From an uncultured Clostridium sp. (lineage in GTDB: Bacteria > Bacillota > Clostridia > Clostridiales > Clostridiaceae): DNA of 64,000 nucleotides. The stretch spans positions 62,001 to 126,000 of the forward strand of contig CAIFEX010000003.1 in assembly GCA_903789665.1 (NCBI GenBank). Reading direction: 5' to 3'. Made by a program: the position numbers and the translations under genes. Shown piece by piece: positions 7,370 through 57,257 of this stretch; the first letter of the stretch is position 1; each line of letters begins with the position of its first letter. The notes under the pieces were generated by a model. It was given only the letters and a program-made list of their open reading frames with translations. It ran no database searches and was not told where the DNA came from.

Positions 7370-7492
7370 TCACCTCATCTTCCAGAACTGCATTCTGATG
7401 GACTTAGCACCTTACATGCATTGATATGTCTAGCTGCACGGGTTGCTGAAACTTCATCGGGCCATTCCCTAAGTTTCTCTTGATAAGGATCA
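7370..7492 (-). promoter_or_regulatory. SAM-I (S-box) riboswitch
   Basis: The minus strand reads CTTATCAAGAG (7487-7477), then GGCCCGATGAAG, CAGCAACC, GTGCTAA and GATGAGG (7379-7373). This is the S-box core in order, with a P1 pairing CCTTATC/GATGAGG. It ends before the terminator at 7295-7330 and the YezD-like gene. S-box RNAs terminate transcription when SAM is bound. Confidence 0.93.
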
Positions 7493-25446: not shown

Positions 25447-25527
25447 TTACCACACTACAAAACTCTGTCACTAAAAATAACAGCAGTATTACAATTGATA
25501 AATCCTTCCCTCCGAAAGATTACTACA

Positions 25528-25690
25528 TACCTAGACACAGGCAGGTCTCCTGACTATCGGTTCATCCTTTTTTCCCTTCCCAGAAACTTTCCAGTGGAAT
25601 CCAAAATCGTCACCTTATACAGTAGCGGGGGCTGTAAGGGTATCTCACCCTATTCCCTTTTAATTATCAACTAAACCTTATGCCTTTTTA
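25528..25690 (-). promoter_or_regulatory. Cobalamin riboswitch 1 (apparently orphan)
   Basis: The minus strand contains GGGTGAGATACCCTTACAGCC, GCTACTGTA, CCACTGG, GGGAAGGG and GTCAGGAGACCTGCCTGTG, the B12-box core in order. A TTGACG-N17-TATAAT promoter starts it (25735-25707) and two terminators follow. The next gene is the SIR2-like protein 150 nt further on; no cobalamin-related gene is directly downstream. Confidence 0.92.
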
Positions 25691-25706
25691 TTAAGTTATA
25701 TTCTAT

Positions 25707-28848: not shown

Positions 28849-28917
28849 CTGAAGAATCATAAAATTTCATCACCTAAGTCACCTCCCTATCACTCGTAGA
28901 GTCAAATGGTCACTAAC

Positions 28918-29065
28918 ATATAGGCAGGTCTTCTGACTTGGATTCATCACCCTTACAGCCTTCCCAGTTTCCCAGTGGCATATATTGCAAGGATTCCTCT
29001 TTTACAGCGGCGGGACCGTGCAGACTTTTCATCTTGCTTCCCTTTTAAGCAAAAGCACCTATATA
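28918..29065 (-). promoter_or_regulatory. Cobalamin riboswitch 2 controlling cbiMNQO
   Basis: The minus strand has GCCGCTGTAAAAGAGG, CCACTGGGAAACTGGGAAGG, CTGTAAGGGTGATGA and GTCAGAAGACCTGCCTA: the B12-box core, shorter than copy 1. It is followed by a strong hairpin and cbiM. Confidence 0.92.
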
Positions 29066-29164
29066 TTCATATTATATTTTAAAATAAAATTAAAATTATC
29101 ATTCAATCAATAACTAAAATAAGTTTCTCACAAACTTATAAAACTGTCAAGTTAAATTTACCAT

Positions 29165-29910: not shown

Positions 29911-30175
29911 AAAAAAAAACTCCATCCTGAAAACAGGACGGAGATTTCCGCGGTACCACCTAAATTGTGCTTTAAAAAAGCACCTCTTTTTTCGGATACA
30001 AACATATCCTATCCATTATAACGTATGGCCAACGTTAACCACTACTTTCTACACCGGGTAGATTTCAATTTACTCCTCTTAGGTCCATTCACTACATATT
30101 TGGTGCCGGGATCCCACCTTCTCCGGCTCTCTTCAACTTGAGTACATAGTTACTCTTCCTCGTCAAAGGATTTAA
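29911..30175 (-). promoter_or_regulatory. Tryptophan-specific T-box riboswitch with terminator
   Basis: On the minus strand: AAGAGTAAC, AGAGAGCCGG, GGTGGGATCCCGG, the specifier segment GTGAATGGACC (UGG = Trp, with purine following), GGAGTAAA, ACGTTATAATGG, and the antiterminator core TAGGTGGTACCGCGG (29967-29953). The terminator CTCCGTCCTG/CAGGATGGAG with an eight-T tail lies at 29945-29911. Uncharged tRNA-Trp binding should allow read-through to trpP. Confidence 0.95.
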
Positions 30176-42956: not shown

Positions 42957-42991
42957 ATAAAAAACCGGCAACTTCTCATCATATGAAGCCG
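42957..42991 (-). terminator. Terminator of the aromatic operon
   Basis: CGGCTTC..GAAGTTGCCGG stem with TTTTTT following on the minus strand, overlapping the end of aroK. Confidence 0.65.
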
Positions 42992-43497
42992 TAGATTGAC
43001 GTTATCAATTCAATTATATTTCCAACTACATTTTCAATAGTATCTACATTTTTAACAGAAAAATCACAACAGTCCCTATAAACAGGATACCTGTATTCAA
43101 ATATTTTCTCAATCTCTCCAGCATTATTTTTTAAAAGAGGCCTGCAATTTATATCTAAATCACCAATTATATTTTCAAGAGGTCTGTCTATAAAAATTAT
43201 CAACCCTTTTTTACTGAGATTAAGTATGTTTTTTTTGTTCTTTATCACTCCACCACCTGTAGATATCACAATATCTTCCCTTTTGCTCACCTGTGCTACA
43301 GCTCTTGATTCCAAATCTCTAAAAAATTCCTCACCACTTTTAAAAATCTCCGAAATAGTGCACTCCTGTTGTTTTTCTATATATTCATCTATATCTATAA
43401 AACTCTTATCCAATTCGCCGGCCAGTATTTTCCCCAAAGTAGTCTTTCCAGAACCCGGCATGCCTATCAGAACTACATTCTTATACACTCTTTTCAT
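42979..43497 (-). CDS. aroK: Shikimate kinase
   Basis: 172 residues. Walker A GMPGSGKTT (12-20), DIDEYIE with the shikimate-binding Asp, FRDLESRAV, STGGGV and RPLL. Phosphorylates shikimate at O3 using ATP. Last gene of the aromatic operon, 4 nt after aroE. Confidence 0.95.
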   Translation of the reverse strand: MKRVYKNVVLIGMPGSGKTTLGKILAGELDKSFIDIDEYIEKQQECTISEIFKSGEEFFRDLESRAVAQVSKREDIVISTGGGVIKNKKNILNLSKKGLIIFIDRPLENIIGDLDINCRPLLKNNAGEIEKIFEYRYPVYRDCCDFSVKNVDTIENVVGNIIELITSIYGFI

Positions 43498-43501
43498 AAA
43501 A

Positions 43502-44326
43502 TTACATATTCCCTTTATCTTTATGAATATTTAAAAATTCATCATATAACTCATCTACAGCTTTCAAAGATATTTTCTCTCTCTGCCAGATCTGCTGGGA
43601 TGCTGCAGCTTGGGCTATCAGCATATACAATCCACTGACAGTATAAAGCCCCAATTCATCTGCCAATCTCAAAAACAAGGTATTCCGGGGATTGTATATT
43701 AAATCTACCGCCGTGTCAAATTTGTCCAGAATTTTTTTATCTACAGGAGAGCTGTCGACATCGGGATACATTCCACAGGGCGTACAATTTATTATAATAT
43801 CTTTTTTCTTCATCCGGCATAGATCATCATATCCTATAACTTTAAATTTATTTCCGCGGAACTTTCCCGGATCTCTGCTCACATATGTCATACTGCCGGC
43901 TCCCCTGTCCAGGACATATCTGGCTGCAGCTTTGGAAACACCTCCTGTACCCAACAGCACTATACTCTTATTGTGCACCTCTATGCCGTACCTTTTCAGA
44001 GTCAGTCCGAAGCCATAATAATCCGTATTGTGGCCTATAAGCTTATCTCCTGAAAATTCCACAGTATTTACGGCCCCTATATTCCCTGCCTCACAGGATA
44101 TATCATCTATGTATTTCATAATTTCAACCTTATAAGGTATAGTTACATTGACACCCCGACACCCAAGTATTTTTAAACTCTCCAAGCACCTGTCCAAATT
44201 TTTTTCTTTTATTTCAAAGAGATTATATTCTCCGCTCTTCCCCATAGACTTAAAAATAAGATGGTGTATTGTGGGAGAAAAGCTATGTGCCAGGGTCTTT
44301 CCTATAAGTCCATAAAAATTACTCAA
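43502..44326 (-). CDS. aroE: Shikimate dehydrogenase
   Basis: 274 residues. The substrate domain has LAHSFSPTIHH and VNVTIPYK with the catalytic Lys; the NADP domain has LLGTGGVSKAA; GLYMLIAQAAASQQ is C-terminal. Reduces 3-dehydroshikimate to shikimate. It follows pheA after an 80-nt gap holding an inverted repeat. No 3-dehydroquinate dehydratase gene is in the operon, so that step must be encoded elsewhere. Confidence 0.94.
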   Translation of the reverse strand: MSNFYGLIGKTLAHSFSPTIHHLIFKSMGKSGEYNLFEIKEKNLDRCLESLKILGCRGVNVTIPYKVEIMKYIDDISCEAGNIGAVNTVEFSGDKLIGHNTDYYGFGLTLKRYGIEVHNKSIVLLGTGGVSKAAARYVLDRGAGSMTYVSRDPGKFRGNKFKVIGYDDLCRMKKKDIIINCTPCGMYPDVDSSPVDKKILDKFDTAVDLIYNPRNTLFLRLADELGLYTVSGLYMLIAQAAASQQIWQREKISLKAVDELYDEFLNIHKDKGNM

Positions 44327-44406: not shown

Positions 44407-45543
44407 CTAATCCTCCTTATAACTCCCCAATAATTTAAAATATGAGCTTTCTGTCCTTATGCCCTGAAGTGCGTATTTAGTTTCAGACTTCGTCATATTG
44501 CCCTGAAAATCAATGTAAAAAAAATATTGCCAGGGTTTATTTATTATAGGTCTTGAATCTATTTTAGTCATATTCAAGTTATTTTTCCAGAAAAATTTAA
44601 GTATATTGTACAAACTTCCGACTCTATGCGGTAGAGCAACAAGAATGCTGATTTTGTCAGAGTTTTTATCGCATATCATATTTCTCCCTATTATTATGAA
44701 TCTAGTATAATTATTGTTATTGTAATTTATATTTTCTTTCAATACGTGCAATCCATAAAATTCTGCAGCCTCCTTACTTGCAATGGAAGCTTTGTGCTTA
44801 TTATTTTCTCTGCTCACATATTCAGCACTCTTGGCAGTATTAAAATAAGGTATAAGCTTCCACCGGCTGTGTTTCTTTAAAAACTCCCTGCTCTGCAGGA
44901 AAGCCTGACTGTGAGAATATACTTCTTCTATATCGTCAATTGAAGAGTCATAAATACCCAGTAGATTTTGAGTTACCTCAATACATTTTTCCCCGACTAT
45001 ATAGAAATCATATCTTTCAAGCAGATCATACACTTGAGAAATCCCGCCGGTAGAAGAATTTTCAACAGGAAGTATTCCATAATCTATATTCCCATTCCTC
45101 AGCGATTCAAAAACATCTTCAAAATCGTCAAAACCAACTGCCCTGACTTTATCCCCAAAATAGCCAACCAGGGCTTCATGACTAAAAGATGCCGGCACAC
45201 CCTGAAATCCAACTTTACAGGAGCTGTCATACTTCACTGGTTCCAGTTCACCACCATATCCGCAAAATTTCTCTATTCTCTTCTTTTGAAAATTCTTACT
45301 TATGTCCATAATGTCTTTCAAAAAAATTTCCACTTCATCCACATCTGCCATAGAATATTTTTTTAAATTTGTCAGATGGATTTTTATAACTTCTTTTTCC
45401 CTATTTTCATCCAGTATATCCATACCATTCATTCTTTTATAATCGGCCACACTGGAAACCACACTCATTCTCTCCTGAAAAAGCTCAATCATCTTCTCAT
45501 CTATGCTGTTTATTCTCTCTCTAAGTTCCTCTAAACTTTTCAA
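44407..45543 (-). CDS. pheA: Bifunctional chorismate mutase / prephenate dehydratase
   Basis: 378 residues. An AroQ-type mutase domain (about 1-90), a dehydratase domain (about 110-285, with GILPVENSSTGGISQVYDLL and NNYTRFIIIG), and a C-terminal ACT domain with HRVGSLYNIL and ESRP-like DSRPI for phenylalanine feedback. Converts chorismate to phenylpyruvate. The operon also makes its product's leader-peptide codons limiting. Confidence 0.94.
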   Translation of the reverse strand: MKSLEELRERINSIDEKMIELFQERMSVVSSVADYKRMNGMDILDENREKEVIKIHLTNLKKYSMADVDEVEIFLKDIMDISKNFQKKRIEKFCGYGGELEPVKYDSSCKVGFQGVPASFSHEALVGYFGDKVRAVGFDDFEDVFESLRNGNIDYGILPVENSSTGGISQVYDLLERYDFYIVGEKCIEVTQNLLGIYDSSIDDIEEVYSHSQAFLQSREFLKKHSRWKLIPYFNTAKSAEYVSRENNKHKASIASKEAAEFYGLHVLKENINYNNNNYTRFIIIGRNMICDKNSDKISILVALPHRVGSLYNILKFFWKNNLNMTKIDSRPIINKPWQYFFYIDFQGNMTKSETKYALQGIRTESSYFKLLGSYKED

Positions 45544-45566: not shown

Positions 45567-46643
45567 TTACATCAAATTCAATATACCTATGACAGCAGCG
45601 GCTTCTATCACCGGAACAGCCCTCGGTACAATACAGGGATCATGCCTGCCTTTTATTCTCAAAATCGCGTCCTCACCGCTTTCAATATTTACGGTCCTCT
45701 GGGCTTTTGCTATAGAAGGAGTCGGCTTCACGGCTGTCTTGAATATAAGCGGCATTCCATTGGTAATTCCTCCCAAAATTCCCCCGTTATTGTTGGTATA
45801 GGTCTTTATCTCATGATTTTCCGACATATAGTATTCATCATTGGCTTCTGAGCCTTTCATTGCAGCTATGTTGAAACCTTCTCCAAATTCCACTCCTTTA
45901 ACTGCAGGAATAGAAAATAAAAGCTGGGAAAGTGTACTTTCCACTGAATTAAAAAATGGATTCCCCACACCTGCCGGCAGGTTCAAAACCATCGTTTCCA
46001 CAACTCCTCCAAGAGAATCTCCCTCTTTTCTGGCCCTCAATATACTGTCTTTCATCTTTTCGCCACAGCCTTTATCCAATACAGGAAATATATCTTTTGA
46101 AAGTTTTTCAAGCGTGTTCTTATCAGTGGAAACAGCATCGAAGGAATACTTATCTTCCACGCGGCCTATACTCTTTACATGGCTCCCTATCACTATACCT
46201 CTTTCCTCAAGTACTTTTCTGCACAGTGAACCGGCAAAAACCAGAGGTGCTGTAAGTCTTCCGGAAAAATGTCCCCCTCCCCTGTAATCGTTAAAGCCCT
46301 TATATTTAACTCTGCCGGTAAAATCCGCATGACCCGGTCTCGGCATATTTGAAATTTCTTCATAATCTTCTGAATTGACATCGCCGTTCAATATCACGGC
46401 ACAAAGTGGAGTCCCCGTAGATCTGCCTCTGAAACATCCACTCAGTATATGGAACTCATCATTTTCTTTTCTTGCAGTAGACAAGCTTGTATTTCCAGGG
46501 GCCCTCCTTTTCATCTGTTCTCTTATGTATCCAAGATCAATTTCAATACCAGGTTTCAAGCCGTCTAAAACTATACCGACAGCTTTTCCGTGGGATTCTC
46601 CAAAAATGGATATTTTTATTTTATTCCCCCATATTCCGCTCAT
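45567..46643 (-). CDS. aroC: Chorismate synthase
   Basis: 358 residues. FMN-dependent 1,4-elimination of EPSP. Signature blocks [26 protein letters not shown] and [24 protein letters not shown] overlap with aroA. Confidence 0.96.
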
Positions 46644-47905
46644 AATATATTACCTCCCAAAATCATAAAATCTTTCCAAAATCCCGGATATGATTTTTTG
46701 ACACATTCAGCCCCTTTTATTGTCATAGGGTTCAAACATCTTGAAGACACCGACGCCAGGGACATGGCTATTCTATGATCATCCCAGCTGTCTACCTCAC
46801 CGCCAGCCAGCCTTTCCCTTCCTCTTATAAGAAGTCCATCTTCTTTTTCCAAAACATGTCCGCCAATTTTATTTAATTCAGATGATATGGCTTTAAGTCT
46901 ATCTGATTCTTTAATTCTAAGTCTTCCTGCATTTTTAATTTCAGTAGTACCGCAGCTTACAGAAGCCAAAGCTGCAAGTACGGGTACAAGATCGGGGCAT
47001 TGTGAAGCATCAATGGTACTGCCATAAATTCTATCGGAAGGCATGGCAATCAAACTGTTTCCCGTCCATTTAACTTTTACACCCATTTTTTTCAGTATAT
47101 CCACTATCATCCTGTCACCTTGAAGGGAATCTTTTTTTAGTCCGCAGCATACAATGCCATTTCCAAGTGCTCCCATAACAAGCCAAAAAGCAGCCTGCGA
47201 AAAATCCCCTTCCACTCTATAGTCACTGCTTTCATATTTTTGTCTTCCCCTGACTACATATCTTTTAAGCCCGTCTTCACATACTTTTATTCCAAATTTT
47301 TTTAATACATCCAGTGTAATATCAACATAAGGTCTGGACTCCAATGCAGTAGTTAAATTTACCGAAGAATCTCCGTCCAATATAGGAAGGACAAATAAGA
47401 GCCCTGTTATAAACTGGGAACTTATATCCCCTCTCACTTCATAATCTCCTGGTTTTAATTTTCCCTTTAAAATCAGGGGCAGTTTCCCGTTAAAATTTTT
47501 ATAATATATTTTTTGATTATCGAATATGTCGTAATAGACGTCAAGAGGTCTGTCTATAAGCTTCCCACCGCCCGTGAAAATAATTTTCTCATCAATTGCG
47601 GCTGCTATAGGTACTAGAAATCTCAGGGTGGAACCTGACTGGCCGCAATTTATATACGGATTTTTCACAGTCAGCCGGGGATTTCCTTTTACAGTTAAAT
47701 TAGATTTCCCTCTATATATTTTCACGCCCAGATTTTCCACAGCATTACAGGTAGCATATATGTCTCTGGAAAAACTGATATTTTCCAAATTGCTTACACC
47801 ATCACCCAATGAAGCACATATTATCGCCCTATGGCATATACTCTTAGAACTAGGTACATTTATCTTGCCATTTAATTTTGCCGGATTTATATGTACATAT
47901 TCCAA
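46640..47905 (-). CDS. aroA: EPSP synthase (3-phosphoshikimate 1-carboxyvinyltransferase)
   Basis: 421 residues. [28 protein letters not shown] (a loop with Gly-x-Ser where many enzymes have GNAGT, as in class II-like variants), [11 protein letters not shown] and [10 protein letters not shown]. Joins shikimate-3-phosphate and PEP. Short overlap with aroC. Confidence 0.95.
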
Positions 47906-47935: not shown

Positions 47936-49003
47936 CTAAAACAGGAAGTTCTCTACTTCGGGCATTTTCACTTTCATTATCACTGCTTTCCCGGTTTCTT
48001 TTAAAACTATGAGATTTAGAATATTACCACTTAAAGACTTTTTATCCAATGCTATGGAATTCATGACAGATTGTTTATCCAAATTAGGCATGCAGGTAGG
48101 GAGTCCATATTTGTCCAATGTGAATTTCATATAATCATATGTACCGCTTTTGGTTATACCCATTTTCTCAGTTTTTCCCGTTATTGCAGTCATGCCAATA
48201 GCTATGGCTTCACCATGGCTGTACCTATCATAATTATAATATCTCTCTATAGCATGACCTAAAGTATGGCCAAAATTCAATATCATCCTGCTTCCCAAAT
48301 CCATCTCGTCTATTTCTACCACCTGTTTTTTTATGCTGCAGCATTTATATATTATATCTTCAATATTAGCCAGGACATCTTCCCTGCTGGAATAGGAGTC
48401 AAGTGCCTTCAGAATGCTTTTGTCACGTATAAATCCATATTTTATAACTTCCGACATCCCATCACTAAAAAATCTGCGTTTCAAGGACGAAAGCACGTCA
48501 GGATCTATAAAAACTGCATCCGGATGATAAAAATTTCCCACCAGATTTTTGCCCCAGGGCAAATCCACGGCCACTTTCCCACCTATGCTGCTGTCTACCT
48601 GTGCCAAAATTGAAGTTGGAACCTGAATGTACTTTATGCCTCTTAAATAGGTAGCTGCGGCAAAGCCGCCCAGATCACCTACAACTCCCCCTCCAAACGA
48701 TATTATAATATCATTTCTCCTTATATTAAATTTACATAAATCCCTATATACATTTTTGAGTACATCTAGGGTCTTACTCTTTTCACCGGGTTCTATGGAT
48801 ATTACATTTACTTCAAATCCACTATCCAAAAGTGATTTTTTTAACACGTTCAAGTACAATTTCTCCACATTATAGTCAGTAATCACGACAACATTTTTCC
48901 CTTTATAAATATCTTCCAATTTTTCCCCTATACAATTTAAAATTCCTCTTTTTATATATATCCTATAGGATTTTTCTTTAAGATTGATATCAACAACATT
49001 CAT
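47936..49003 (-). CDS. aroB: 3-dehydroquinate synthase
   Basis: 355 residues, NAD+ and divalent-metal enzyme that cyclises DAHP. Blocks SFGGGVVGDLGGFAAATYLRG, VPTSILAQVDSSIGGKVAV, NFGHTLGHAIE (zinc ligand His). I start at the ATG at 49003, with AGGTGAGGA upstream and 13 nt after tyrA. The longer in-frame ATG at 49054 lies inside tyrA. Confidence 0.94.
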   Translation of the reverse strand: MNVVDINLKEKSYRIYIKRGILNCIGEKLEDIYKGKNVVVITDYNVEKLYLNVLKKSLLDSGFEVNVISIEPGEKSKTLDVLKNVYRDLCKFNIRRNDIIISFGGGVVGDLGGFAAATYLRGIKYIQVPTSILAQVDSSIGGKVAVDLPWGKNLVGNFYHPDAVFIDPDVLSSLKRRFFSDGMSEVIKYGFIRDKSILKALDSYSSREDVLANIEDIIYKCCSIKKQVVEIDEMDLGSRMILNFGHTLGHAIERYYNYDRYSHGEAIAIGMTAITGKTEKMGITKSGTYDYMKFTLDKYGLPTCMPNLDKQSVMNSIALDKKSLSGNILNLIVLKETGKAVIMKVKMPEVENFLF

Positions 49004-49016
49004 AAAATCACTGTCC

Positions 49017-49886
49017 TCACCTTTTAATAAGAGATTTCCTTCTGCATGCTGCATTTTCGAAAATATCCTTCAGCATGTCAGTATCTTTGCCCTTTAAAGC
49101 TGTCTTCAATCTGTCCATACTTCTTTGAAATATTTCTATTTCATCTATAAGTTTATCTGAATTCATCATAAATAACTCACTCCACAATTCAGAATTAATC
49201 TGTGCAACTCTCGTGATATCTTTAAAACTTCCCCCTATGAAGGATGACATAGAATTTATAAAATTTTCCCCGTGGGAATTTATAATTGAAACTGCTGCAG
49301 CATGTGGAAGCTGACTGGTAAACGCAATTATATCATCATGCTTTTCAGGGCTCACATAAACCACACTGCCGCATCCTATTCTTCTGGCCATTTCATCTAT
49401 GATTTTAAGTCCTCTGGCCGTATTTTTATTGCTCGGGGTTATTATATAATTTGCATTTGTAAAAATATCCGCCGAAGCAAACTCTATTCCCCTGGATTCT
49501 CTGCCCGTCATGGGATGTCCTGCAACAAATTCAATGTGCCCAGGCAAAAACGAATTTATATCTCTTACCACATCTCTCTTTACACTTGAAGTATCTGTTA
49601 TAATTCCTCCATTCTTAAAATTCTGCAAATTGTCTCTCACAAACTTCACCGTATCTCCAGGATAAAGAGCTGCTATAACCAAATCCACATCTTTTAAAAA
49701 TTTCCCTCCACTTTCATATACCTCATCTACAATGCCCCTGTGCAGAGCATTCTTTAAAACTTTCCCATCTCTGTCTATTCCAATTATACTTCTGGGTTTT
49801 AAAGCCCTGAGAGCCATAGCATAAGATCCGCCTATAAGCCCTATCCCAACAACAGCTATGTTTATATCAAAGTCATAATCTTTCAC
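49017..49886 (-). CDS. tyrA: Prephenate dehydrogenase
   Basis: 289 residues. NAD-binding GIGLIGGSYAMAL (14-), GHPMTGRESRGIEFA and a C-terminal helical dimer domain ending near QRSMDRLKTAL. Makes 4-hydroxyphenylpyruvate for tyrosine. No ACT domain, so direct tyrosine control is less likely. GTG start behind GGGAGAG. Confidence 0.92.
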   Translation of the reverse strand: MKDYDFDINIAVVGIGLIGGSYAMALRALKPRSIIGIDRDGKVLKNALHRGIVDEVYESGGKFLKDVDLVIAALYPGDTVKFVRDNLQNFKNGGIITDTSSVKRDVVRDINSFLPGHIEFVAGHPMTGRESRGIEFASADIFTNANYIITPSNKNTARGLKIIDEMARRIGCGSVVYVSPEKHDDIIAFTSQLPHAAAVSIINSHGENFINSMSSFIGGSFKDITRVAQINSELWSELFMMNSDKLIDEIEIFQRSMDRLKTALKGKDTDMLKDIFENAACRRKSLIKR

Positions 49887-49916: not shown

Positions 49917-50951
49917 TCATACATTCAAGGCATTATATTTCCTGCAGGACATTGCATCCTCCATTCTGTTTATATCCTTCATAAGTTCCTGAAATACTTT
50001 TGGCTTTATGGACTGCTGTCCATCACATTTTGCATTGGCGGGATCATTGTGAACTTCTATCATAAGTCCATCTGCACCTACGGCTACTGCCGCCTTGGCA
50101 AGAGGCTCCACCATCCACCAAATTCCAGCTGCATGGCTTGGATCTACTATTACCGGAAGGTGGCTCAATTTTTTTATAACCGGCACAGCACTTAAATCCA
50201 GTGTATTCCTCGTATAGGTCTCAAAAGTCCTTATTCCCCTCTCACAGAGTATTACATTTTCATTTCCACCTGACATTATATATTCAGCAGACATAAGCAA
50301 TTCCTCAATAGTAGCTGAAATTCCCCTTTTCAATAAAATGGGCTTTTTAGTCTTCCCAAGCTGCCTCAAGAGATCAAAATTCTGCATATTTCTTGCACCA
50401 ACCTGTATTATATCTACATCTTCCACAAATTTATCTATCAGATCTGTAGACATAATTTCCGTAACAATTGGAAGTCCCGTCTCCTTTCTGGCTATTTTTA
50501 AAAGTTCAAGTCCTCTTTCCTTGAGACCTTGAAAACTGTAAGGTGAAGTCCTGGGCTTAAAAGCACCTCCTCTTAAAAATTTGGCTCCGCTTCTCTTCAC
50601 ATCTTTTGCAATGCCTACAATCTGCTCCTCGCTTTCAACGGAACAGGGGCCTGCTATTACAGCCAATCTGCCTCCTCCTATGGAATTTTCCCCCACTTTC
50701 ACAACAGTATCATCAGGGTGAAACATCCTGTTGGAAAGCTTATACGGCTGCTGTACTTTTTTTACATCCTCCACAAACTCATCTGCCCTGATCTTGCCTG
50801 CGTCAACCCCTGTTGTATCACCTATAAGACCCAGCACACAATATTCCTTCCCCTGTATTACATTTACAGATACGTTATTTTCTCTTTCGATTTTTTGCTT
50901 CAGCCTCATTATTTCATTCAACGGCGACTTTGGCTTCATAATTACTATCAT
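49917..50951 (-). CDS. aroF: DAHP synthase (3-deoxy-7-phosphoheptulonate synthase, class I-beta)
   Basis: 344 residues. A short N-terminal ferredoxin-like/ACT-like regulatory domain (about 1-75) then the TIM barrel with VIAGPCSVESEEQ, LRGGAFKPRTSPYSFQG, LKRG and VDPSHAAG. Commits PEP and erythrose-4-phosphate to aromatics. I start at 50951 behind AAGGAGGG; the longer reading runs into the terminator hairpin. It is the first enzyme gene of the operon, directly after the attenuator. Confidence 0.95.
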   Translation of the reverse strand: MIVIMKPKSPLNEIMRLKQKIERENNVSVNVIQGKEYCVLGLIGDTTGVDAGKIRADEFVEDVKKVQQPYKLSNRMFHPDDTVVKVGENSIGGGRLAVIAGPCSVESEEQIVGIAKDVKRSGAKFLRGGAFKPRTSPYSFQGLKERGLELLKIARKETGLPIVTEIMSTDLIDKFVEDVDIIQVGARNMQNFDLLRQLGKTKKPILLKRGISATIEELLMSAEYIMSGGNENVILCERGIRTFETYTRNTLDLSAVPVIKKLSHLPVIVDPSHAAGIWWMVEPLAKAAVAVGADGLMIEVHNDPANAKCDGQQSIKPKVFQELMKDINRMEDAMSCRKYNALNV

Positions 50952-50973: not shown

Positions 50974-51005
50974 AAAAAAGCAAGGCTCCTTAATGAGCCT
51001 TGCCT
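50974..51005 (-). terminator. Attenuator terminator of the aromatic operon
   Basis: GCAAGGCTC / GAGCCTTGC stem (51003-50995 with 50988-50980 on the minus strand), loop ATTAAG, then TTTTTT. It lies between the leader peptide and aroF. Its loop and flanks (CTCATTAAGGA, 50997-50987) are complementary to the leader stop-codon region (TCCTAATGAG, 51087-51078). Confidence 0.9.
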
Positions 51006-51081
51006 AAAATTAACCAATTGCATTTTATTCTAGCATGAAGTATGTAAAACTTCCATCACCACATACAACTATATCCACTCA

Positions 51082-51210
51082 TTAGGAAAGATCTAAATAT
51101 TTTTGAAAGCAAAAATAACCAGCGCTAAAATAAAAATAGCCCCAGCTAAAGGTAAAGTAAAAGTAATTTTTATTTTCTGCTTTCATTTCTTTCCCAATGA
51201 CATCTTTCAT
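51082..51210 (-). CDS. Aromatic-amino-acid leader peptide of the aro operon
   Basis: 42 codons from the ATG at 51210, with GGAGGT 9 nt upstream, ending TAA at 51082. Residues 16-38 contain 7 Phe, 6 Tyr and 1 Trp, including YFYFTFSWGYFYF. Such density is the mark of a ribosome-mediated attenuation leader like pheL, extended to all three aromatic acids. The N-terminal 15 residues are ordinary and charged. The stop-codon region can pair with the terminator loop, giving a mechanism. I find no other product-like feature, so the peptide itself is probably not the functional product. Confidence 0.88.
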   Translation of the reverse strand: MKDVIGKEMKAENKNYFYFTFSWGYFYFSAGYFCFQKYLDLS

Positions 51211-51262
51211 TTCAACTTTACCTCCACATAAAATAAATTATAATCTAAATCTATTGTTTCTA

Positions 51263-51290
51263 ATTATAGCAGGTTCTCTCTTTATGTCAA
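51263..51290 (-). promoter_or_regulatory. Promoter of the aromatic operon
   Basis: TTGACA (51290-51285), 16-nt spacer, TATAAT (51268-51263). Expected start near 51256, giving a leader of about 305 nt before aroF. Confidence 0.88.
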
Positions 51291-51429: not shown

Positions 51430-52635
51430 ATGAACAGGTACAAGAAACTAGTCTTTGCTTTTTTTGTCTCTGCAGCTCTTATGAACAGTAGAAATATGAT
51501 AAATACCGTACACGCAGATAGTATTTTACCAAATATTCAAAGCAGTGCCTACACTGCAGTTGGAAACATATTTGCCAAATGCGGATACAGGGGACAGTGC
51601 ACTTGGTTTACATACGGTAGAGTTCTTGAAAAGCTCGGAATTGCACTACCTTCAGAATTCTACGGAAATGCAGTGGAATGGTGGTATGCCAATGCAAGAG
51701 ACAATGTATACCCCTACGGTTATGAGCCCAGGGCAAATTCTATAGTAGTGTGGGGCGGCGGACCTATCGGCTACGGACATGTAGGTTTCGTAGAAAAAGT
51801 AGAAGGCGATACCGTATATTTTAATGAAGGTAATTTCAGCATAAGAGGAAATTACGATGGAAACGTGAAAACCCTTTCAAAAGAGGCCATAAAAAACCGC
51901 GGCAATTTATATCTAAAGGGGTACATATACGTTGGAAATGGGAGACAGTCAGTCCCTGCTTCTTCCCCGGGCAGCGGCCCTGATGAAGATACAGATACCC
52001 ACAAAACTGGATTTGTAAATATTTCCAGTAATAATTCCTGTTTGAACATAAGAAATGGTGCAGGTACATCTTTTGGAATACTGGGGAGTCTAAAAAAAGG
52101 ACAATCTATTGAAATAGTCGGTTCCGTCGGAAGCTGGTATAAGATAAAGTTGAATTCATCATATGGTTATGTAGCTTCCACCTACATAAGTACAGATGAA
52201 AACAGCAGTACTCCAACCTCCAACTCGAAAACGGGTTATATCAAACTTCAAAACAGCTCTTCCTATTTGAATTTAAGATCAGCACCCCAAGGCCCCATAA
52301 TAGGATCCCTGTCAAACGGAACACAGGTAACCGTTCTGGGAAGTTCAGGAAGCTGGTGCAAGATCACTGCAGGAAATAAAACCGGTTATATCTATTCCAG
52401 CTATATGAGCTTTTCACAGCCAGCACCTGTACCGGCAAATTCCAAAACCGGTACTGTAATTTTGAAAAATAGATCTTCTGTATTGAATTTAAGAAATAAT
52501 CCATGGACAGGGCGTGTACTCGCAGCTCTTCCCTATGGGAGTAAAGTTACGATTTTAAGTACTGACGGGCGCTGGTACAAAGTACAGGCTGGATCTGTAA
52601 CAGGTTATGTACATTCTGACTATATAAGGGTGTAA
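51430..52635 (+). CDS. Secreted CHAP amidase/endopeptidase with three SH3 domains
   Basis: 401 residues. Signal peptide (1-29), CHAP domain (about 45-165) with catalytic Cys57 in GQCTWFTYGR and His117 in YGHVGFVE, then three bacterial SH3 domains (about 195-255, 269-327, 341-399), each with a LNxRSxP-like core and GYVxSxYI end. Likely cleaves peptidoglycan during growth, division or lysis. AGGAGG 7 nt before the ATG; a small hairpin (AGGTTA/TAACCT, 51399-51415) sits just upstream of it. Confidence 0.9.
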   Translation: MNRYKKLVFAFFVSAALMNSRNMINTVHADSILPNIQSSAYTAVGNIFAKCGYRGQCTWFTYGRVLEKLGIALPSEFYGNAVEWWYANARDNVYPYGYEPRANSIVVWGGGPIGYGHVGFVEKVEGDTVYFNEGNFSIRGNYDGNVKTLSKEAIKNRGNLYLKGYIYVGNGRQSVPASSPGSGPDEDTDTHKTGFVNISSNNSCLNIRNGAGTSFGILGSLKKGQSIEIVGSVGSWYKIKLNSSYGYVASTYISTDENSSTPTSNSKTGYIKLQNSSSYLNLRSAPQGPIIGSLSNGTQVTVLGSSGSWCKITAGNKTGYIYSSYMSFSQPAPVPANSKTGTVILKNRSSVLNLRNNPWTGRVLAALPYGSKVTILSTDGRWYKVQAGSVTGYVHSDYIRV

Positions 52636-57059: not shown

Positions 57060-57125
57060 CACTTTAATAATTTAACAGGCTGGATGAAGCTGGCGGAATA
57101 TATCCATAGACCGTTAGCTGACAAG

Positions 57126-57202
57126 CCTCTGGAGAGACTCGTAAAGAGCGCCGAAGGGGAAAACTGTCTACAGTGAAACTCTCAGGTAAAGAGGACAGAG
57201 GA
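57126..57202 (+). promoter_or_regulatory. Glycine riboswitch (single aptamer)
   Basis: CCTCTGGAGAGACTC, AGAGCGCCGAAGGGG, GAAACTCTCAGGTAAAGAGGACAGAGG: the gcvT-type glycine aptamer in full. The preceding 57076-57125 may be a degenerate partner. A terminator follows at 57258-57288. Glycine binding normally prevents termination. Confidence 0.92.
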
Positions 57203-57257
57203 TTTTATCCAAAATAGTAAATTTCTAATTATTTGCTGTTTTAATTCCTTGTTTACC

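Follow-up and report, generated by a model that had tools for sequence, protein, structure and literature searches.

Upstream of aroF in a 64,000-nucleotide stretch of DNA from an uncultured Clostridium sp. (contig CAIFEX010000003.1, positions 62,001 to 126,000; hereafter the window, with positions counted from its first letter), we found a leader region that very probably acts as a ribosome-mediated transcription attenuator of the trp/phe type and controls the whole aro operon. As judged by sequence comparison, the region has a leader open reading frame (ORF), a characteristic class of aromatic codons, competing RNA helices, and a hairpin inside those codons. Among the parts of a leader-peptide attenuator, the following are present: an ORF with a ribosome-binding site, cognate codons, a terminator, an antiterminator, and a protector helix.

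Control codons and RNA helices upstream of aroF

The whole arrangement lies on the minus strand and runs from 51290 down to 50951 in the order promoter, leader ORF, terminator, aroF. An earlier note, made from the letters of this DNA alone, had described a consensus promoter, a 42-codon leader rich in aromatic codons, and an intrinsic terminator before aroF, and our checks agree with it on each of these. The promoter (51263..51290) is of the sigma-A type, TTGACA-16-TATAAT, with 12 of 12 consensus matches and a TG before the -10. A Shine-Dalgarno GGAGG (51221..51225), recognized by sequence, precedes the leader ORF of 42 codons (MKDVIGKEMKAENKNYFYFTFSWGYFYFSAGYFCFQKYLDLS; 51082..51210), which is supported by the ORF listing and by comparison with relatives. 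Residues 16-38 hold 14 aromatic codons in 23 (7 Phe, 6 Tyr, and 1 Trp), the highest aromatic count of any stop-free 23-residue frame in the window (47,594 over all six frames), where the next highest elsewhere is 13. The leader RNA folds better than all of its dinucleotide shuffles (200/200, z -3.44).

Four pairing regions can be recognized in this RNA. Region 1, the protector arm, is made of codons 4-8 (51188..51200) and is supported by folding, a shuffle test, and alignment. Its partner is region 2, the 5' arm of the antiterminator (UCUUUCCUAAUGAGU, 51077..51091; alignment and shuffle tests), which overlaps the leader stop codon; the pairing of 51200-51188 with 51091-51079 has an energy of -18.1 kcal/mol. 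Region 3, the 3' arm of the antiterminator (50987..50998; alignment and folding), takes in the upper 5' stem of the terminator, its loop, and the first bases of its 3' side. Regions 3 and 4 together form the intrinsic terminator (50978..51005), with 11 pairs, an energy of -18.4 kcal/mol, and a U tract. The complementarity between the leader stop region and the terminator that the earlier note had pointed out is indeed there, with TCCTAATGAG at 51087-51078 and CTCATTAAGGA at 50997-50987 in our sequence check, and the duplex of region 2 with region 3 (50998-50987) has an energy of -13.4 kcal/mol and one bulged base. The antiterminator and the terminator are mutually exclusive, as are the protector helix and the antiterminator.

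Two elements were absent from the earlier account, namely the protector helix and the hairpin inside the aromatic codons. The latter (51116..51148) has arms at 51148-51137 and 51127-51116 with one mismatch and an energy of -12.4 kcal/mol. It lies within the aromatic run, so that RNA structure and control codons share the same bases.

From this arrangement we infer an order of events, a role for pausing, and a response to starvation. RNA polymerase would make the leader with a ribosome translating close behind. When charged tRNA-Phe or tRNA-Tyr (perhaps tRNA-Trp too) is short, the ribosome would stall in the aromatic codons with its front edge ending short of region 2, an arm that begins about 45 nt after the codons for the residues SAG. 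Region 1 would be kept unpaired by the stalled ribosome or by those following it, and region 2 could capture region 3 before region 4 exists, allowing transcription to enter aroF. When aromatics are plentiful, the ribosome would move over region 2, or region 1 would retake region 2 behind the ribosome; region 3 would then pair with region 4 and transcription would end. The internal hairpin may pause RNA polymerase and let the ribosome catch up; a look by eye 3' of the hairpin gave no pause motif at a fixed distance.

Conservation and folding of the helices

The leader peptide and the pairing, whose absence from relatives the earlier note had said would refute its model, are both conserved. In 30 leaders chosen by hand, the protector helix, the internal hairpin, and the terminator, taken as one set, have 88.9% of their cells paired and two-sided changes in 14 of their 32 pairs, scoring above 500 of 500 shuffles on both counts and above all slid versions. 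Of 70 leaders, 41 have a protector helix stronger than shuffles at p <= 0.02. In the 30 hand-chosen clostridial leaders, the antiterminator is 95.3% paired, compared with 18-70% when it is slid. A wider set, with 65 distinct rows from 72 leaders kept of 84, has 609 of 779 antiterminator cells paired (shuffle mean 585) and 35 two-sided changes (mean 19), values that 0 of 500 shuffles reached; related sequences may exceed shuffles even when there is no structure, and we read these pair counts as support and not as a probability. Matched variants of the two arms include GAUGAG/CUCAUC in locus L096, CAAGUGAG/CUCCUUG in L024, and CAGAG/CUCUUUG in L038 and L153.

Folding of shortened transcripts, with and without a ribosome, depends on the RNA 3' end and is only partly informative as a test of the switch. 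We assumed a ribosome footprint reaching about 14 nt ahead of the first base of the A-site codon and used four 3' ends within the terminator. With the ribosome on the stop codon, the probability of region 2 pairing with region 3, P(2:3), is 0.00 at 4 of 4 ends. With the ribosome placed at any one of codons 18, 26, 33, and 38, and with the leader covered upstream of it, P(2:3) is 0.78-0.99 at the 3' end 50986.

A number of results weigh against an attenuator of this kind. In the folding, the same stalls with the leader covered give P(2:3) of 0.01-0.91 at the other three 3' ends, a stalled ribosome with region 1 left free gives 0.00-0.99, and transcripts with no ribosome give 0.95 at one 3' end and 0.01-0.22 at the others. 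Full-length equilibrium folding gives a P(2:3) of 0.00 in all 18 settings, one of them with no ribosome, and the terminator wins. The two-sided pairs of the helix set are distributed unevenly, the terminator accounting for 8, the protector helix for 5, and the internal hairpin for 1 (from one sequence), and its further pair types (44) are matched or beaten by 13 of 500 shuffles. In several leaders the protector helix is no better than shuffles, for example in L006, L018, L027, L080, and L101. The antiterminator arms are near-invariant in the 30 clostridial leaders, where they show no covariation beyond shuffles; the energy of the region 2:3 duplex beats that of shuffled partners (p<0.05) in only 28 of 84 leaders, and region 3 from another species often pairs equally well with region 2. 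In relatives the position of the stop codon ranges from 38 nt upstream to 65 nt downstream of the arm, and in many of them it is well beyond region 2. Aromatic density by itself is no proof either: 270 of 525 aromatic-rich frames (at least 11 aromatics; 80 loci) are outside the position before aroF, and L003 has an opposite-strand frame with 17 of 23 aromatics.

Some of these points can be accommodated. Since the terminator always wins at equilibrium, the switch would have to be kinetic, as known attenuators likewise are. Cross-species pairing that is as good as native pairing is expected if the arms hardly change. Aromatic-rich frames do arise elsewhere in AT-rich DNA, so the argument rests on conservation and not on aromatic density. 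The stop codon calls for a change in the mechanism that the earlier note had proposed, in which ribosomes reaching the stop codon cover the arm and the terminator forms. Attenuation itself is supported by the comparison; the position of the stop codon on the arm is only local. Because that position varies among relatives, a ribosome at the stop codon cannot be the general off-state, and the predicted protector helix between codons 4-8 and the arm can fill this role instead.

Amino acids probably read by the leader

We regard sensing of Phe and Tyr as well supported, while sensing of Trp is doubtful and the weakest part of the model. Among 84 leaders, 70 have exactly one Trp codon and 12 have none, compared with means of 6.0 Phe and 4.5 Tyr codons, and the Trp codon sits in the 5' arm of the internal hairpin. 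With a single Trp codon that overlaps the hairpin, the case for Trp sensing is weak. Reading of Phe and Tyr by the leader fits the content of the operon, which covers the common aromatic pathway and the branches to Tyr and Phe. Phe and Tyr also replace each other at the aromatic positions of these leaders, which is what reading by codon predicts: numbered from the Ser of SAG, position -2 is Tyr in 70 and Phe in 14, position -1 is Phe in 71 and Tyr in 11, and position -11 is Phe in 35 and Tyr in 33. The earlier suggestion of one sensor for Phe, Tyr, and Trp therefore holds up for the first two amino acids and is weak for the third.

In the same genome, a T-box match scoring 92.4 bits, just below the gathering score of 93, stops 219 nt short of the trpE match, and Trp is therefore likely to have a sensor of its own. 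At L182 (~1048-1400), a T-box upstream of trpE has a second T-box-like GGGTGGCACCGCGG and a T-run behind it, as if the two were in tandem.

A refinement of our model, not exclusive with it, is that the leader senses only Phe and Tyr, with the Trp codon kept for the hairpin (UGG-GGC arm) and Trp sensed by the T-box of the trp operon. The scarcity of Trp codons, the place of this codon within the hairpin arm, and the T-box before trpE all speak for this refinement. On the other side, most leaders retain the Trp codon, which even as the only slow codon midway through the run could contribute to stalling, and the operon also makes chorismate, the precursor of Trp. We would give the refinement slightly less than an even chance.

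Conservation at the level of codons and spacing

Judging from codon use and spacing, the conserved layer of the leader is RNA more than peptide. A start codon with a Shine-Dalgarno-like stretch can be assigned by rule in 59 of 64 leaders. The Ser codon of SAG is AGC in 72 of 74 leaders (0.21 in aroF) and the Ala codon is GCU in 57 of 60 (0.26 in aroF), counts that are not independent, the leaders being related. The fixed codons are explained by the internal hairpin, which is formed from the codons of (S/F)WG and SAG, and this explanation replaces selection on SAGY as a peptide core, which we had also considered. The internal hairpin has a mean z of -2.7, with 68 of 84 leaders below -1.5. In L007, SYG replaces SAG and both hairpin arms are changed yet paired, the only two-sided change in this hairpin among the 30 leaders. 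In 71 of 74 leaders the antiterminator arm RTGAG follows the SAG codons at a distance of 42-49 nt, with frame phases of 34/33/7. An arm at constant distance but in all three frames indicates that selection acts on the RNA.

These observations bear on nascent-peptide arrest of the TnaC or Erm-leader type, in which the conserved WGYFYFSAGYFFCKK would stall the ribosome in response to a small molecule, for instance free Phe or free Tyr. The core peptide is conserved across genera, as arrest would require, but it is fixed at the level of AGC and GCU codons, which the hairpin explains, Phe and Tyr are interchangeable, L007 retains the hairpin with SYG in place of SAG, and the arm after the core is read in differing frames. 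Conservation of the peptide independent of its codons is not what we see, and we rejected arrest on the codon evidence as very unlikely.

We also considered that the leader might conceal a T-box or a metabolite riboswitch, which we find more improbable still. The source genome is rich in T-boxes (31 matches, 25 of them above the cut-off), and the part of PMC4448216 available to us describes a candidate aromatic riboswitch before the aroF operon of Enterococcus faecium. However, none of the 31 T-box matches is at aroF, and in the window RF00230 is above threshold only at 29931-30175. No Rfam family is over threshold at the leader site, a result that covers Rfam families only, and coding sequence, in which the aromatic codons are conserved, makes up about half of the transcribed leader. 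That the leader is a chance ORF of AT-rich DNA, full of UUU and UAU codons and lying beside an ordinary terminator, is scarcely credible and was rejected on conservation, for although AT-rich DNA yields aromatic-rich frames elsewhere, the terminator is not that of the upstream neighbor, which is oriented oppositely, there is a consensus promoter ahead of the ORF, and the arrangement is conserved over many genera.

Distribution of the leader

The attenuator leader is widespread. We scanned 114 aroF upstream regions (the first loci) with a profile built and refined on the leaders found there; these loci include duplicates, with the leader of our site present twice (L004 = L105). The profile places a leader upstream of 65 of the 114 aroF matches (E < 0.01). 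By record title the carriers include Clostridium, Pelosinus, Sporomusa, Phascolarctobacterium, and Epulopiscium, and the leader is therefore not confined to Clostridium, genera such as Pelosinus and Sporomusa having it as well.

Within the order, a profile search found the leader in at least 126 of 194 sampled genomes. This is a lower bound because the search missed the clear leader of L170 (G184, E 1.1e-5). L171 (G137, E 0.68) has a possible leader that the order-wide search did not pick up. An Rfam scan of 16 pre-aroF regions with no leader match in that search found no match; L170, which does hold a leader, is one of the 16. There were 130 leader matches in the order sample, of which 107 lie at most 700 nt upstream of an aroF among the 150 aroF matches listed. 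The other 23 comprise 12 before aroF, 7 before aroB, 1 before a shikimate-kinase-like ORF, 2 at a contig end, and 1 that looks like chance, for a total of 119 that precede aroF. All 7 aroB neighbors are above the TIGR01357 cut-off, and the shikimate-kinase-like ORF has no NCBIfam model match at 1e-20. The one match that looks like chance, in G008 (L146, E 9.6e-4), has no aromatic gene among the ORFs listed, and a second leader-like match in the source genome (C18, E 0.047) was likewise taken as chance. Across the phylum, 13 of 398 sampled genomes have the leader; 9 of the 13 matches are new loci, and aroF is downstream in all of these (9/9). A shikimate kinase gene of Pelosinus fermentans is preceded by a second aromatic leader (L021:5944-6081, minus strand), which has a terminator to itself. 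Going by these neighbors, the leader unit travels with the aromatic pathway and is placed before the gene heading the cluster.

A broader proposal, which we offer tentatively and would sooner doubt than accept, is that these leaders belong to an old and widespread family of multi-aromatic attenuators that predates the split between Clostridia and Negativicutes. One leader would integrate how far tRNA-Phe, tRNA-Tyr, and tRNA-Trp are charged, a pause hairpin made from control codons would time the decision, and the whole would be a portable cassette before aroF, aroB, or aroK.

Several loci show variations on the same theme. Two tandem terminator-like hairpins, with loops CTCATTAT and CCATTATA, are found in related leaders before aroF in L028, L014, L029, and L108, and also in L144, L145, and L149. 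In a Pelosinus locus (L183, ~1220-1262), we saw a lone copy of the internal hairpin with no evident start codon or terminator, between ORFs that by eye are transporter-like and CoA-transferase-like; it is perhaps a decayed attenuator. More divergent aromatic-rich ORFs also occur before aroF, among others in records labelled Oscillibacter, Ruminococcus, and Christensenellaceae, and are likened to the leader here by position and content. In this set of 24 regions, with ORFs picked by hand, a terminator-like hairpin follows in 23 of 24 as judged by eye. A different leader, e.g. NIARSAEYRYFSFTYFYGKAYFGLAE, followed by a very strong terminator, stands before aroF in L058, L064, L066, L070, and L072 (some labelled Oscillibacter or Dysosmobacter); these leaders perhaps make up a second, independent family of aromatic attenuators. 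In L062 and L076, two records labelled Fusobacteria, aroF is preceded by an aromatic-rich ORF and a terminator, and the A1 profile has no match at E 0.01 in the whole genome of either.

The aro operon and other features of the window

The leader is followed by an eight-gene operon, aroF-tyrA-aroB-aroA-aroC-pheA-aroE-aroK, with all genes on one strand (minus) and tightly spaced. Its first structural gene is aroF (DAHP synthase, 49917..50951), above cut-off for PRK08673 and TIGR01361. Matches above cut-off also identify aroB (3-dehydroquinate synthase, 47936..49054, TIGR01357), aroA (EPSP synthase, 46640..47905, TIGR01356), aroC (chorismate synthase, 45567..46643, NF003793), and aroE (shikimate dehydrogenase, 43502..44326, TIGR00507). 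The remaining three are under the curated cut-offs: tyrA, prephenate dehydrogenase-like (49017..49886, best E 5e-55); pheA, chorismate mutase/prephenate dehydratase-like (44407..45543, best E 1.7e-65); and aroK, shikimate kinase-like (42979..43497, best E 3e-36).

The divergent neighbor gene (51430..52635, plus strand) is in the opposite orientation to the leader and looks like an SH3-type cell-wall protein. EntFM-like wall-binding models give it 86.7 bits against a cut-off of 720, so far below that the name is not warranted. Other RNA regulators in the window are the T-box mentioned above, two cobalamin riboswitches (28906-29077 and 25524-25695), and a SAM riboswitch (7372-7489), all on the minus strand, and a glycine riboswitch on the plus strand (57119-57208).

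Comparison with known systems

The leader attenuators of the enterobacterial trp and pheA operons are the classical kind. The aro leader shares with them a promoter, a short translated leader with codons for the product, the alternatives of protector, antiterminator, and terminator, and a terminator before the first gene. Unlike them, it mixes Phe and Tyr codons and adds one for Trp, its protector arm is at the start of the leader ORF and upstream of the control codons, it has an extra hairpin within the control codons, and its hosts are Clostridia and Negativicutes. The ilv and thr leaders are multi-amino-acid attenuators, each reading several related amino acids of a common pathway, as the aro leader probably does; the amino acids and hosts differ.

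Teaching usually presents leader-peptide attenuation as a device of Proteobacteria and assigns the corresponding task in Firmicutes to T-boxes. The genome studied here has many T-boxes, one of them before trpE, and what appears to be a classical attenuator for the shared aromatic pathway. The leaders collected in this study offer a comparative set for asking why the pathway would use codon reading and its branch tRNA binding, and a case in which RNA structure and control codons come from the same bases. The model also predicts how aromatic synthesis would respond in fermentation clostridia.

Our literature search, which took in few subscription papers and some sources only in part, turned up no account of this family in clostridia, of its protector helix or its internal hairpin, or of mixed reading of Phe and Tyr. 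Among the sources it covered, PMC8632094 (2021) has the only leader-peptide proposal for aroF outside E. coli that we noticed. The part of that paper available to us describes uORFC-13-1, 24 sequences upstream of aroF from Acholeplasma and environmental DNA, suggests attenuation via Phe incorporation, and cites a hypothesis for E. coli aroF. As far as this description goes, uORFC-13-1 and the aro leader both have a Phe-codon upstream ORF beside an intrinsic terminator and a further base-paired part, with a like mechanism proposed, and uORFC-13-1 is found upstream of aroF only. It differs in having 'at least one' Phe codon and in its sources, a comparison made by description only. On the strength of that part, uORFC-13-1 is prior art for the idea of attenuation at aroF. 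One of our loci, L015, is from a metagenome bin labelled Acholeplasmataceae.

The available part of PMC4448216 places the candidate riboswitch gbs2033 before aroFBC-tyrA in Enterococcus faecium, of the Lactobacillales, and proposes aromatic amino acids or their precursors as its signal. Its likeness to the aro leader is by description only, and it is proposed as a riboswitch. According to the accessible portion of PMC2965389 (2010), no leader attenuator had been shown outside Proteobacteria and Actinobacteria, ermC aside as atypical, and a His leader in bacilli is reported. From what is given there, the His leaders of bacilli resemble the aro leader in being leader-peptide attenuators in Firmicutes instead of T-boxes, and differ from it in their genes (hisS/hisZ), their His codons, and their hosts, which are Bacilli.
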